From: Bacteroidota bacterium
GTDB lineage: Bacteria > Bacteroidota > Bacteroidia > JACCXN01
DNA: 64,000 nt
Reading direction: 5' to 3'
Assembly: GCA_013696965.1 (NCBI GenBank)
Contig: JACCXN010000074.1
Span: forward strand, 1 to 64,000
This document shows, in pieces, positions 7,531-62,893 of this stretch. The translations under genes and the position numbers were made by a program. The notes beneath the pieces were generated by a model that was not told where the DNA came from, did not search any database, and was given only the letters and a program-made list of their open reading frames with translations. The first letter of the stretch is position 1. Each line of letters begins with the position of its first letter.

Positions 7531-7670
7531 ATAATATTGAATAATATACACACTTTCAATCAATAATTTTACAATACCATGTTTGTTTTTTGTTTAGATT
7601 CTCAATATAAATTTAATTTTTTCTTTACGCCCTTTAAGTGAATACTATGAATTTTGTGGATTTTGTAAAT

Positions 7671-8118
7671 GCAGCTCCGCTCTTTTGCTTTGTTTGATTT
7701 TTTTTTGCGCCTTTGCGAAAAACTTTGTGCCTTTGCGTGAAAATGGTATTTCCTTTTATTAATAATCGGTTTAAAATTTCACGCAAAGGCGCAAAGAGAT
7801 TAGCGCAAAGGGCGCAAAGAATTTGGAGTGTTTTTTTATTGCAGCTTCTCGCATTTTTTTATTTGATTTTTTTTTGCGCCTTTGCGAAAAACTTTGTGCC
7901 CTTTGCGTGAAAATGGTATTTCCTTTTATTAATAATCGGTTTGAAATATCACGCAAAGGCGCAAAGAGATTAGCGCAAAGGGCGCAAAGAATTTGGAGTG
8001 TTTTTTTATTGCAGCTCCTCACATTTTTTTATTTGATTTTTTTTGCGCCTTTGCGACAAACTTTGCGCCCTTTGCGTGAAAATGGTATTTCCTTTTTTTA
8101 ATAATCGGTTGAAAATTC
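7671..8118. repeat. tandem array of a 170-bp unit, each unit a large imperfect palindrome
   Basis: Two full units (7671-7840, 7841-8010) and a partial third (8011 to about 8118) repeat at a period of exactly 170 bases, judged from the GCAGCT(C/T)C block at 7671, 7841 and 8011. Within each full unit a left arm (TTTGCGCCTTTGCG ... CTTTGCGTGA) is the inverted complement of a right arm (TCACGCAAAGGCGCAAAG ... GCAAAGGGCGCAAAG) around an AT-rich loop of about 30 bases (GGTATTTCC...AATAATCGG), so each unit could form a hairpin with arms of about 40 bases. The third unit stops within the loop. Short reading frames crossing the units arise from the repeat and are not genes. The rest of 7531-8325 shows nothing else. 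Confidence 0.85.
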
Positions 8119-58210: not shown

Positions 58211-58647
58211 ATTTATTTTCTTCAAATAAACCTTTGTACAATAAGGTGATTTTCATGCTTATTTTAATTTACCCTGCCAAATGAAAATGGGAAACATTAT
58301 TTTCATTCAAATAAACCTTTGTACAACAAGATGATTTTCATGCCTACTTTATAATACATTGCCAAAGGTAAATGGGAAACATTATTTTCTTTCAAATAAA
58401 CCTATGTACAATAAGATGATTTTCATGCTTACTTTACAATACCTTGCCAAAGATAAATGGGAAACATTATTTTCTTTCAAATAAACCTTTGTACAACTAA
58501 ATGATTTTCATGCTTACTTTACAATACCTTGCCAAAGGTAAATGGGAAATATTATTTTTTTTCAAATAAACCTTTGTACAACAAGGTGACTTCCATGCCA
58601 CCTCTTCCAGAACTTGCCAAACGTAAATGAGAAACATTAATATCATA
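58211..58647 (-). repeat. 85-bp tandem array derived from the 3' end of the PorP/SprF gene
   Basis: Five units begin at 58223, 58308, 58393, 58478 and 58563 (marker CAAATAAACC), an exact 85-base period. The last unit is inside the PorP/SprF-like gene and encodes its C-terminus. The other four are downstream of its stop. Translated on the minus strand, each reads like that C-terminus: for example the unit at 58308 gives N-N-V-S-H-L-P-L-A then K-I-I-L-L-Y-K-G-L-F-E, against I-N-V-S-H-L-R-L-A then E-V-T-L-L-Y-K-G-L-F-E in the gene. Two units have an internal stop. Because 85 is not a multiple of three, no frame runs through the array. The rest of 58103-58210 is T-rich spacer. Confidence 0.9.
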
Positions 58648-59562
58648 GCTAAAGCCAACAGAAAAATTATTTTTAAAATCGAATCTGCTAGCTAAAGCAA
58701 TTGCATCACCAACCCTATAAAAACCACCAAGATATAAAGCAGAGGAAGTTCTTAAACCAGTATATTTTGAATCAACTCCCAAAACATATTTTACCATTGC
58801 TCCTGCATTTATTTCATAAAATGGACCTTGTTTGGCAAGCATTAGCGCTGGAAGAATTGATGTATTGGTGTTTTCCAGGACTATTTCACTACCTCCATGT
58901 ACTATTATTTTTGTAAGTACTCGGTCACTGCTTCCATAAAAGGATTGGGGTGGATTATTTATATGAGATACGGAAATACCAGAATTAAATTTTAAATTTT
59001 TATCCCTCCTTACAAAATTCCAAAACAATCCTCCTGAAAGGTCAATAAAGGCAAAATTTAGAGCAGATAAATTTTCATTAGGATTTCGGTTTACATCATA
59101 ATTATCTCCGTCAAATTGATTATCCCATTTTAAACCTGAAAGATTTACGCTTTTTTGACCCATTCCACTTTGTATTCCAGCACCCAAAGTGTTTTCCTTA
59201 TTCATTTTTATATGATAGGAAAGAGAAAGTGATCCCATACTAGTTCCCATTTTGGATTCACCTGCCTTATCACTATAAAAAGATACACCCAAACCCAAAG
59301 CATTATTTTTGGATTTGCCTACTTTGATTTTAGAATCAAATAATGCATAAATTGTTTTATAAGGAGTTCCAACACTCCCCCATTGGTCTTTGTAATGTGA
59401 CATAAAACGATAATCTTCTCTGAAAGCTCCTATAGTAGCGGGGTTATAGGTTTGGCTTGCTATTTCAAACTGAGAGAAATGAATATCTTGGGCATTTGAA
59501 TCTATTTTGAATAGCATACAACCAATTGCTATTGCAATAAAGCACGTAAATTTTTTTTTCAT
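58552..59562 (-). CDS. PorP/SprF-family type IX secretion outer-membrane protein
   Basis: A 336-residue protein. The signal peptide ends near S-N-A-Q-D (residue 25). The PorP/SprF domain begins I-H-F-S-Q-F-E-I-A-S-Q-T-Y-N-P-A-T-I-G and continues Y-R-F-M-S-H-Y-K-D-Q-W with alternating beta strands (L-G-L-G-V-S-F-Y-S-D-K-A-G) to the final strand S-H-L-R-L-A ... M-E-V-T-L-L-Y. PorP/SprF proteins assist export or surface attachment of type-B-CTD cargo and are usually encoded next to it. Here that cargo is the 60341 gene, upstream on the same strand across 778 bases. Its 3' end is the source of an 85-bp array. Confidence 0.92.
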   Translation of the reverse strand: MKKKFTCFIAIAIGCMLFKIDSNAQDIHFSQFEIASQTYNPATIGAFREDYRFMSHYKDQWGSVGTPYKTIYALFDSKIKVGKSKNNALGLGVSFYSDKAGESKMGTSMGSLSLSYHIKMNKENTLGAGIQSGMGQKSVNLSGLKWDNQFDGDNYDVNRNPNENLSALNFAFIDLSGGLFWNFVRRDKNLKFNSGISVSHINNPPQSFYGSSDRVLTKIIVHGGSEIVLENTNTSILPALMLAKQGPFYEINAGAMVKYVLGVDSKYTGLRTSSALYLGGFYRVGDAIALASRFDFKNNFSVGFSYDINVSHLRLASSGRGGMEVTLLYKGLFEKK

Positions 59563-60340: not shown

Positions 60341-62785
60341 CTATCTAATCAAAGTTATATCTCCCTTTTGGATTATTCTTTGATTTGTTTCTAAAAAGGC
60401 ATCTAAATAAAAAACAAAAACAGATGGTGGTAATTGTTGTCCTCTAAAAGTCCCATCCCAGCCTTGATTTAAATCGCTTGATTCAAATACTTTTTCTCCC
60501 CATCTATTATATATATACAAATTGATCGATTTAATACCTTTGCCTCTTATATAGAGGATGTCATTGTTACCATCACCATTCGGGGAAAATATGTTGGGTA
60601 CAAATACTAGCAGGTTAGGATCAACAAAAACAGTAACCGAGTCAATTGATTTACATCCATTATCACCTGTTAACATTACATAATATGTTGTACTCACTTT
60701 AGGATTAGCATTAGGAGAAGCACAATTTAAACAACTTAAACTACTTTCAGAATTCCAGGCATATTTAACACCACCTATTGCATTTAATTGAGCAGAGGTT
60801 CCTAATAAAATAGTTGTATCTTTTCCCGCATCAACAGGTGGGATAAGTTTAATTCTTACTTCCGTTGAATCCTTAACAGTTCCACAGTAATTACTTGCCT
60901 CCACCCAGTAAAACCCCTCCTGATTTACATTAATTACCATTGATGTTTCTCCTGTTGACCAGGTATATTTAAGACTATTTTCTCCTTTAGGATTTAATTC
61001 ATATTCATTGTTTTGACACAAACTAATTTCTTTTTCAAGACTTAGCTTTGGATAAATGAATTGTTTAACTATAATAGTATCAATGGTAGTACAGATTTCA
61101 TTACTTGTTTTGAGCCAGTAAATACCAGGATCTGATGTACTAATGTAAGATGTGGTGTCACCTGTTGACCAAAGAAAGGAATTAGCATTTCCTTGAGCAT
61201 TAATTATTATAGGAGTATTTCCACAAATTGCAGTGTCTTTAATTACATCTACGAGAGGGGCAAGGGGAACTTCAATTATTTTAGTTATTGTATCGGAGCA
61301 GCTACTGCCTTTACCAAAAATCAAGGTTACATTATAAGTTCCAGGTAAGGCATAATTATGTTGTACACTTTCTCCCGTTTCATTACTGCCATCCCCAAAA
61401 TCCCAATAACATGATGATATTCCACTACCCTGTGCATAAAAAGTAACTGGAATTCCAGCGCAAACAGGTGTTTCAAAAGTAAAATCATGATTACTATCTT
61501 CTTCTTTATATCCAACCGTGAAAAAATAGCTGTTCCAACCTCCTGTTCCAAATACATTCGCAATTATGCCACTATCACCTTCTAAGGAATGATAGCCCGG
61601 ATTTATTTCAATTTGTTGATAAGAATAAGAATTAGAGCTTGGAAATGGGATAAAACCTGCTCCAATATTATTTCCGTTAAAAATAACATAATCTTTATAT
61701 AAAGTTTCAACAACAACATTTAAATAATGATTGTTAATGTTTGAAAGGGTTAGGGTGGAAAAATTAACTTTAGTGTATTTCCTATCCCCAGGTGCAAGTA
61801 TTGTCATAGCAGGATCGCCAGATCCTGAACAATCTGATCCTTGTAGGAATTGTGCCACCATTAATGGCTTTTCTGAAGTTATTTGTTTTGTTCCATTTTG
61901 GTTGTTTAAGGTAAAATAATTACCCTTATTTAATGTGGTAAGCGGAACCCCATTGATTGTTATTGCTGTGTTGTCTTCTGAAGCTATCATTCTTAATGAA
62001 TAAAAACCATTCAACGGAGTAACAAGATAATTCTTTCCCCAGTAATCTACTGGTAACATTTGATGGAAAATATGATCCGCAGCAACACAATTAGTGGGGA
62101 TGTTTGCTATTTTTGCTCCGGAAAAAACAGCAAAAGGATTACAAAGCTCCTTAGCTTTTATCTGTGTGCCTGAAATATCAGTTCCATTTGATGATTTTAA
62201 TAAATAGGTTTGACCCGCATTAAGTGTTATCGAAAATTCGACTCCTGAAGCATTCCCATTTATGGTATTTACTGAAGGAATAATGTCAATAATGGTATTA
62301 TCTGTTGCTGCAACTATTAACATATCATTGGGCCATGAACTATAAGCATTATAAGTTAATACTATATATTCTGACCTAAGACTTTGTTTTGGAATTACAT
62401 AACTAGCATCAGAAGTAAATCCAGCATAGTTAGTAACAAAAACAGTAACATCATCATTGGATATAATTTTAATCCCTTTATTTTGTATAACTCCTGATGT
62501 AGTATTTTCTCCTAATGGGGTTGGTATGTTTATGGATACAGAACCACCCGCAGTTACCGAAAAATTGCTTTCCCAGGATTGTAAAGGAATCGAAACTGTT
62601 CCTGACGTATTTACTTCAGAAGAAATGGTTACAACCAATTTCACATTTGATTCTGATTCATTGTTTTGCAAAAAACCTAACCAAAATTCTTTTCCTTTCA
62701 TTGCACTTTGACCCGAGGAAGAATCACTTATCAAAATCAACAAAAGCAATAAAAATACGATTTTAAAAAAGTCTAAATTTACCAT
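60341..62785 (-). CDS. IgGFc-binding-like / PKD secreted protein with type-B C-terminal sorting domain
   Basis: About 814 residues. A signal segment (M-V-N-L-D-F-F-K-I-V-F-L then S-S-S-G-Q-S) precedes an IgGFc-binding-protein-like region (about 30-435), starting G-K-E-F-W-L-G-F-L and including V-T-V-F-V-T-N-Y, S-Y-V-I-P and Y-F-F-T-V-G-Y-K. A PKD domain follows (Y-W-D-F-G-D-G-S near 455), then two or three Ig-like repeats that share Y-x-W-S-T-G. The end is a full type-B CTD: P-N-I-F-S-P-N-G-D-G-N-N-D, Y-N-R-W-G-E-K-V-F, G-W-D-G-T-F and G-D-I-T-L-I-R. Probably a surface adhesin exported by the type IX system. The ATG at 62785 is chosen; an upstream start at 62866 would add 27 basic residues. 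Confidence 0.87.
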   Translation of the reverse strand: MVNLDFFKIVFLLLLLILISDSSSGQSAMKGKEFWLGFLQNNESESNVKLVVTISSEVNTSGTVSIPLQSWESNFSVTAGGSVSINIPTPLGENTTSGVIQNKGIKIISNDDVTVFVTNYAGFTSDASYVIPKQSLRSEYIVLTYNAYSSWPNDMLIVAATDNTIIDIIPSVNTINGNASGVEFSITLNAGQTYLLKSSNGTDISGTQIKAKELCNPFAVFSGAKIANIPTNCVAADHIFHQMLPVDYWGKNYLVTPLNGFYSLRMIASEDNTAITINGVPLTTLNKGNYFTLNNQNGTKQITSEKPLMVAQFLQGSDCSGSGDPAMTILAPGDRKYTKVNFSTLTLSNINNHYLNVVVETLYKDYVIFNGNNIGAGFIPFPSSNSYSYQQIEINPGYHSLEGDSGIIANVFGTGGWNSYFFTVGYKEEDSNHDFTFETPVCAGIPVTFYAQGSGISSCYWDFGDGSNETGESVQHNYALPGTYNVTLIFGKGSSCSDTITKIIEVPLAPLVDVIKDTAICGNTPIIINAQGNANSFLWSTGDTTSYISTSDPGIYWLKTSNEICTTIDTIIVKQFIYPKLSLEKEISLCQNNEYELNPKGENSLKYTWSTGETSMVINVNQEGFYWVEASNYCGTVKDSTEVRIKLIPPVDAGKDTTILLGTSAQLNAIGGVKYAWNSESSLSCLNCASPNANPKVSTTYYVMLTGDNGCKSIDSVTVFVDPNLLVFVPNIFSPNGDGNNDILYIRGKGIKSINLYIYNRWGEKVFESSDLNQGWDGTFRGQQLPPSVFVFYLDAFLETNQRIIQKGDITLIR

Positions 62786-62893
62786 GTTCAAGTTTTTAGT
62801 TTTAATTTTTTTTATTCCTTTTGCTTTCTTCACATTTCTCTTTCTTGAAATCATAAAATTTGCCAAATAATATTGAATTCTCTTTTCCAGTTC

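Follow-up and report, generated by a model that had tools for sequence, protein, structure and literature searches.

Tandem copies of a PorP/SprF gene's 3' end are probably a decayed partial duplication that later expanded

In this Bacteroidota genome, a gene for a type IX secretion protein is followed, beyond its stop codon, by four more copies of its own last 85 bp. Are these copies a store of alternative ends for the protein, do they act as non-coding DNA, or are they what is left of a duplication? An earlier note on this DNA had raised both C-terminal variation by repeat recombination and a relic of repeated end-duplication. We conclude, with a probability of roughly 87%, that the array is a decayed partial tandem duplication that expanded; the process is ordinary, though the form it takes here is unusually clean. 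(Below, the window is the whole stretch of 64,000 nucleotides that was analysed.)

The gene (58552-59562, minus strand) encodes a 336-amino-acid outer-membrane protein of the PorP/SprF family, and it matches both family models over its full length: PF11751 (E = 6.6e-34; 118.1 bits, cut-off 22.3) and TIGR03519 (158.5 bits, above the curated cut-off of 90.55). No solved structure matched the protein by sequence. An AlphaFold2 model has 14 strands (pLDDT 67.5, pTM 0.69), and with moderate confidence the protein is predicted to be a 14-stranded outer-membrane barrel. In the model, residues 309-336 run from the end of strand 13 through the last loop and the closing strand 14 (321-331) into the tail. 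About 780 bp upstream, on the same strand, lies a gene (60341-62866) for an IgGFc-binding/PKD protein with a type B (CHU_C) T9SS sorting domain (PF17517, PF18911, PF13585, TIGR04131), whose product is likely the cargo partner of the PorP protein. PorP/SprF shuttle genes have been described downstream of their cognate type B cargo gene (PMC12618676; PMC9143113), and this gene has the same placement. So in its profile matches, its predicted strands, and its neighbor, it looks like a normal member of the family. The genome contains 15 PorP/SprF-family genes (loci L064-L078), which suggests that it has many type B cargo partners; 10 such genes have been reported in Flavobacterium johnsoniae (PMC9143113).

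The array consists of five 85-bp units in register (58215-58639, minus strand) between two convergent genes. TRF reported a period of 85 with 5.0 copies at 58213-58639 (87% matches, 0% indels, score 616), and identity at a lag of 85 was 0.867 over 58211-58640, whereas 2000 base-composition shuffles reached 0.386 at most. This confirms the exact 85-base spacing that had been described, and tandem units in register are also what a variable-number tandem repeat would have. Unit 1 (58555-58639) is coding and, as had been noted, coincides exactly with the last 28 codons of the gene (309-336). The gene's TAA stop codon (58552-58554) doubles as the first three bases of unit 2. The other four units lie beyond the stop codon and are non-coding: unit 2 (58470-58554) has an in-frame TAG, unit 3 (58385-58469) is open throughout, unit 4 (58300-58384) has an in-frame TGA near its end, and unit 5 (58215-58299), which is the most diverged, has an in-frame TAA. 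The earlier note stated that all four of these copies translate recognizably; they do stay in register, but an in-frame stop interrupts three of the four and only unit 3 is open. It was right that the downstream copies are more similar to each other than to the coding copy: units 2-4 are identical to each other at 78-79 of 85 positions and to unit 5 at 70-72, while the coding unit matches units 2 to 5 at 68, 68, 69, and 65 positions.

To see which version of the sequence is older, we set the units beside 53 other PorP proteins, taken from this genome and from related ones. Glutamate 324 is present in all 53, and glycine 321 in 49 of them. Unit 1 retains both residues; units 2-5 instead read lysine at 324 and valine or isoleucine at 321. 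On a profile of the family's C-terminus, unit 1 scores 26.0 bits, and units 2 to 5 all score below zero (-1.8, -0.6, -1.0, and -1.7, respectively). By this comparison, it is the coding unit that preserves the ancestral state of the family. Nor do the extra copies differ in the way that coding sequences would. By codon position, the sites at which unit 1 departs from the array consensus are split 4/6/4, and the columns that vary among units 2-5 are split 7/7/5, so neither set has an excess at third positions. A coding unit that keeps the family's sequence, next to extra units that have stops and lack codon-position bias, is what would be expected of a decayed partial tandem duplication. The suggestion that the array is a relic is thus borne out by the stops, the loss of E324 and G321, and the sub-zero profile scores.

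The same observations bear on the idea that the downstream units are silent cassettes, which would recombine with the coding unit to alter the closing β-strand and its fit to a cargo or partner. In antigenic variation by silent cassettes (vlsE, pilE/pilS), partial, promoterless copies beside the expressed gene supply usable alternatives. The array likewise consists of partial, promoterless copies next to an expressed gene, but among these there are stops, and residues that are invariant in the family are missing. Judging from their sequences, the units would not be expected to encode a functional alternative. The near-perfect register of the units would suit a variation device, as would the open unit 3, and PorP-like proteins are thought to be specific to their cognate type B cargo (PMC9143113; PMC12618676). 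Yet no other PorP gene that we examined ends in the array-type sequence, and modelling also speaks against this explanation.

We modelled the gain or loss of between one and four whole units and placed the crossover at every phase. Gains never changed the protein, because the TAA that opens each unit comes into frame once a full unit has been read (85 = 3 × 28 + 1). The outcome of losses depended on the position of the crossover. Around unit positions 55-80 are the longest tracts that are identical to the coding unit, at 23-25 bp (in units 2 and 4). Losses through these tracts left GRGGMEVTLLYKGLFE intact and altered only the last two or three residues; for instance, loss of a single unit changed KK to RK. 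Crossovers in the first half of the unit, where identity is broken, replaced the motif with one that lacks the invariant glutamate or led to an early stop, although an alternative end of full length would result if two units were lost through an early crossover. So the proposal that, with a period not divisible by three, recombination could swap the C-terminus or make it longer is mostly wrong: the 85-bp period insulates the protein instead of exposing it to variation. What survives of the swap is the first-half-crossover losses, which would bring in an end without the glutamate. Rare non-functional variants may arise in this way, but a variation device is highly improbable. It is just as hard to credit that rare two-unit losses replace the closing β-strand of a cargo-specific PorP protein with a glutamate-less end and thereby switch off or redirect the secretion of a type B surface protein. 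Slippage in the A8 run at the end of the gene would add at most about 19 residues; this could happen in principle, and we saw no evidence for it.

Could the array instead owe its sequence to a paralogous PorP gene with an array-type end, by copying or by homogenization? The 15 PorP genes in the genome provide candidate sources, and nine sites that differ from the coding unit are fixed in all four copies. However, fixed differences are also expected if a single decayed copy was later multiplied. Furthermore, neither the array's DNA nor its translation has a match elsewhere in this genome, which is estimated to be 100% complete, and within this genome no gene ends in the array-type sequence. The DNA also lacked a match in a sample of 395 genomes from the class, where the only other match was in a PorP homologue (in genome G025), within its conserved coding part. 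The array units resemble the 3' ends of other PorP genes at about the chance level (the best, 32, equals the null maximum), and the array-type end (RYCKVSMKII) lacks the glutamate that is conserved in 53 of 53 other PorP proteins. We therefore consider a paralogous source, which the earlier note had offered, to be very unlikely. Instead, the loss of E324 and G321, the stops, and the sub-zero profile scores of units 2-5 imply that the array type is a degraded derivative of the gene's own end. We did not find a genome from the same genus or another close relative among two genomes from the same family, the 395 genomes from the class, and GTDB contigs; the best PorP relatives in these genomes are about 40-47% identical.

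Alternatively, the copies might be a non-coding element, such as a structure in the 3' untranslated region, a transcript end, or a protein-binding array between the converging genes. The location of the array would fit with this. Also, both flanks of the unit are unusually alike between the coding and the non-coding copies, while the middle is less so. Each unit also contains an inverted repeat, ACCTTTGGCAA ... TTGTACAAAGGT, which is imperfect, although over seven bases it matches exactly in units 2 and 4. But the stem of this inverted repeat is broken in units 3 and 5, and predicted folds were not clearly better than those of shuffled sequences (z-scores from -1.4 to +1.0, with the coding unit as the best). 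We found no terminator-like site in the array, a search of the array against Rfam gave no match at E ≤ 1, and other PorP genes do not have similar copies behind them. We view a non-coding element as unlikely.

How would a partial duplication have given rise to this arrangement? The left edge of the unit inside the gene (GATATTAATG) contains an out-of-frame TAA that spans codons 308-309 (ATT AAT), and a TAA stands at the start of every unit. We infer that the 85-bp stretch holding the last 28 codons was duplicated head to tail and that this internal TAA was likely joined to the TAA of the gene's stop codon, so that the junction would be a shared TAA. Because the distance is 3 × 28 + 1, the duplicated gene would have kept its complete end, followed by TAA, and the original end would have been displaced and become non-coding. 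The displaced copy, free of coding constraint, would have accumulated mutations while the coding unit stayed under selection, and the decayed copy would later have been amplified, by slippage or unequal recombination, into four units. The far side of the array supports a duplication. Unit 5, the most diverged copy, adjoins unique sequence; the 85 bp past it are unrelated to the array units. When gaps are allowed, the GAAGAAAATAA at its far end aligns with the GAAAGAAAATAA at the ends of the other units; unit 5 lacks one A there, and the match extends over the TAA. (Read as it stands, without the missing A, unit 5 would end in ...GLFEENK-stop.) Presumably, unit 5 runs into the original 3' flank of the gene.

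The formation of tandem repeats at direct repeats or at same-strand complementary sequences was described as a general process in bacteria (PMC4169377). The β-lactamase gene penA offers a parallel to the PorP gene: there too, a short piece was repeated head to tail, and short sequences are associated with the ends of the duplicated piece (PMC4169377). In penA the duplications are within the coding sequence and reversibly changed the substrate spectrum; in contrast, all but one of the units in the PorP array are beyond the stop codon and are decayed.

Two features of the array are not fully explained by a decayed duplication. First, in the gapped alignment, indels are almost absent from the four non-coding copies (just one base, in unit 5), which is surprising if the copies are unconstrained; homogenization could account for this. 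Second, the differences between unit 1 and the array consensus are clustered, with 11 of the 14 within 29 middle positions (P ~ 0.014 after allowing for G+C sites). The cause could be that, outside the conserved motif, the copies exchanged sequence with the coding unit, or it could be some further constraint. Exchange outside the motif or continued homogenization could cover both features.

Copies of 3' ends are rare in this genome. We compared the 3' ends of 620 genes, in 864 kb of the 3.86-Mb genome, to the DNA downstream of them, and only the PorP gene gave a strong match (score 97, as compared to a null maximum of 39). None of the 53 other PorP genes is followed by copies of its own 3' end, so in this respect the gene differs from the rest of its family, and in the literature we found no direct description of tandem copies of gene 3' ends in bacteria. 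The next gene in the survey (score 40) is dihydroorotase-like and has a weak two-copy tandem repeat of 80 bp that crosses its stop codon (L091:13457-13612, which is C57:153457-153612 in this genome). This is a possible second duplication of a 3' end, and as it lies in a housekeeping gene, it suggests that gene ends can be duplicated without a link to T9SS function.

We noticed several other tandem repeats. In the window, an intergenic array at 7670-8117 has 2.6 copies of a 170-bp unit that is rich in the palindromic TTTGCGCCTTTGCG / CGCAAAGGCGCAAAG. The unit has partial relatives on contigs C4, C56, C37, C81, and C59 of the same genome, which implies that it is a dispersed repeat family. Elsewhere in the genome, an intergenic array (L089:11566-12479; C57:111566-112479) with 5.1 copies of a 180-bp unit (88% matches) separates the 3' ends of two converging ORFs of 2020 and 1326 residues. 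In genome G009 (L033:120-883), tandem repeats of 195-226 bp cross the stop of a repeat-built ORF (GNAFITGYFSGTADFDPSAGTANLTSVG) near a PorP gene.

If the array did alter the end of the PorP protein, this would amount to a new means of modifying a type IX secretion partner. As the relic that it probably is, it cautions against taking copies that translate recognizably as evidence of use, and against assuming that a period which is not a multiple of three must vary a protein, as it can protect the protein instead. The array would then be a tidy natural record of how tandem duplication of a 3' end can be tolerated: thanks to the TAA at the junction, the protein stays whole even as the copy set free by the duplication decays and multiplies.
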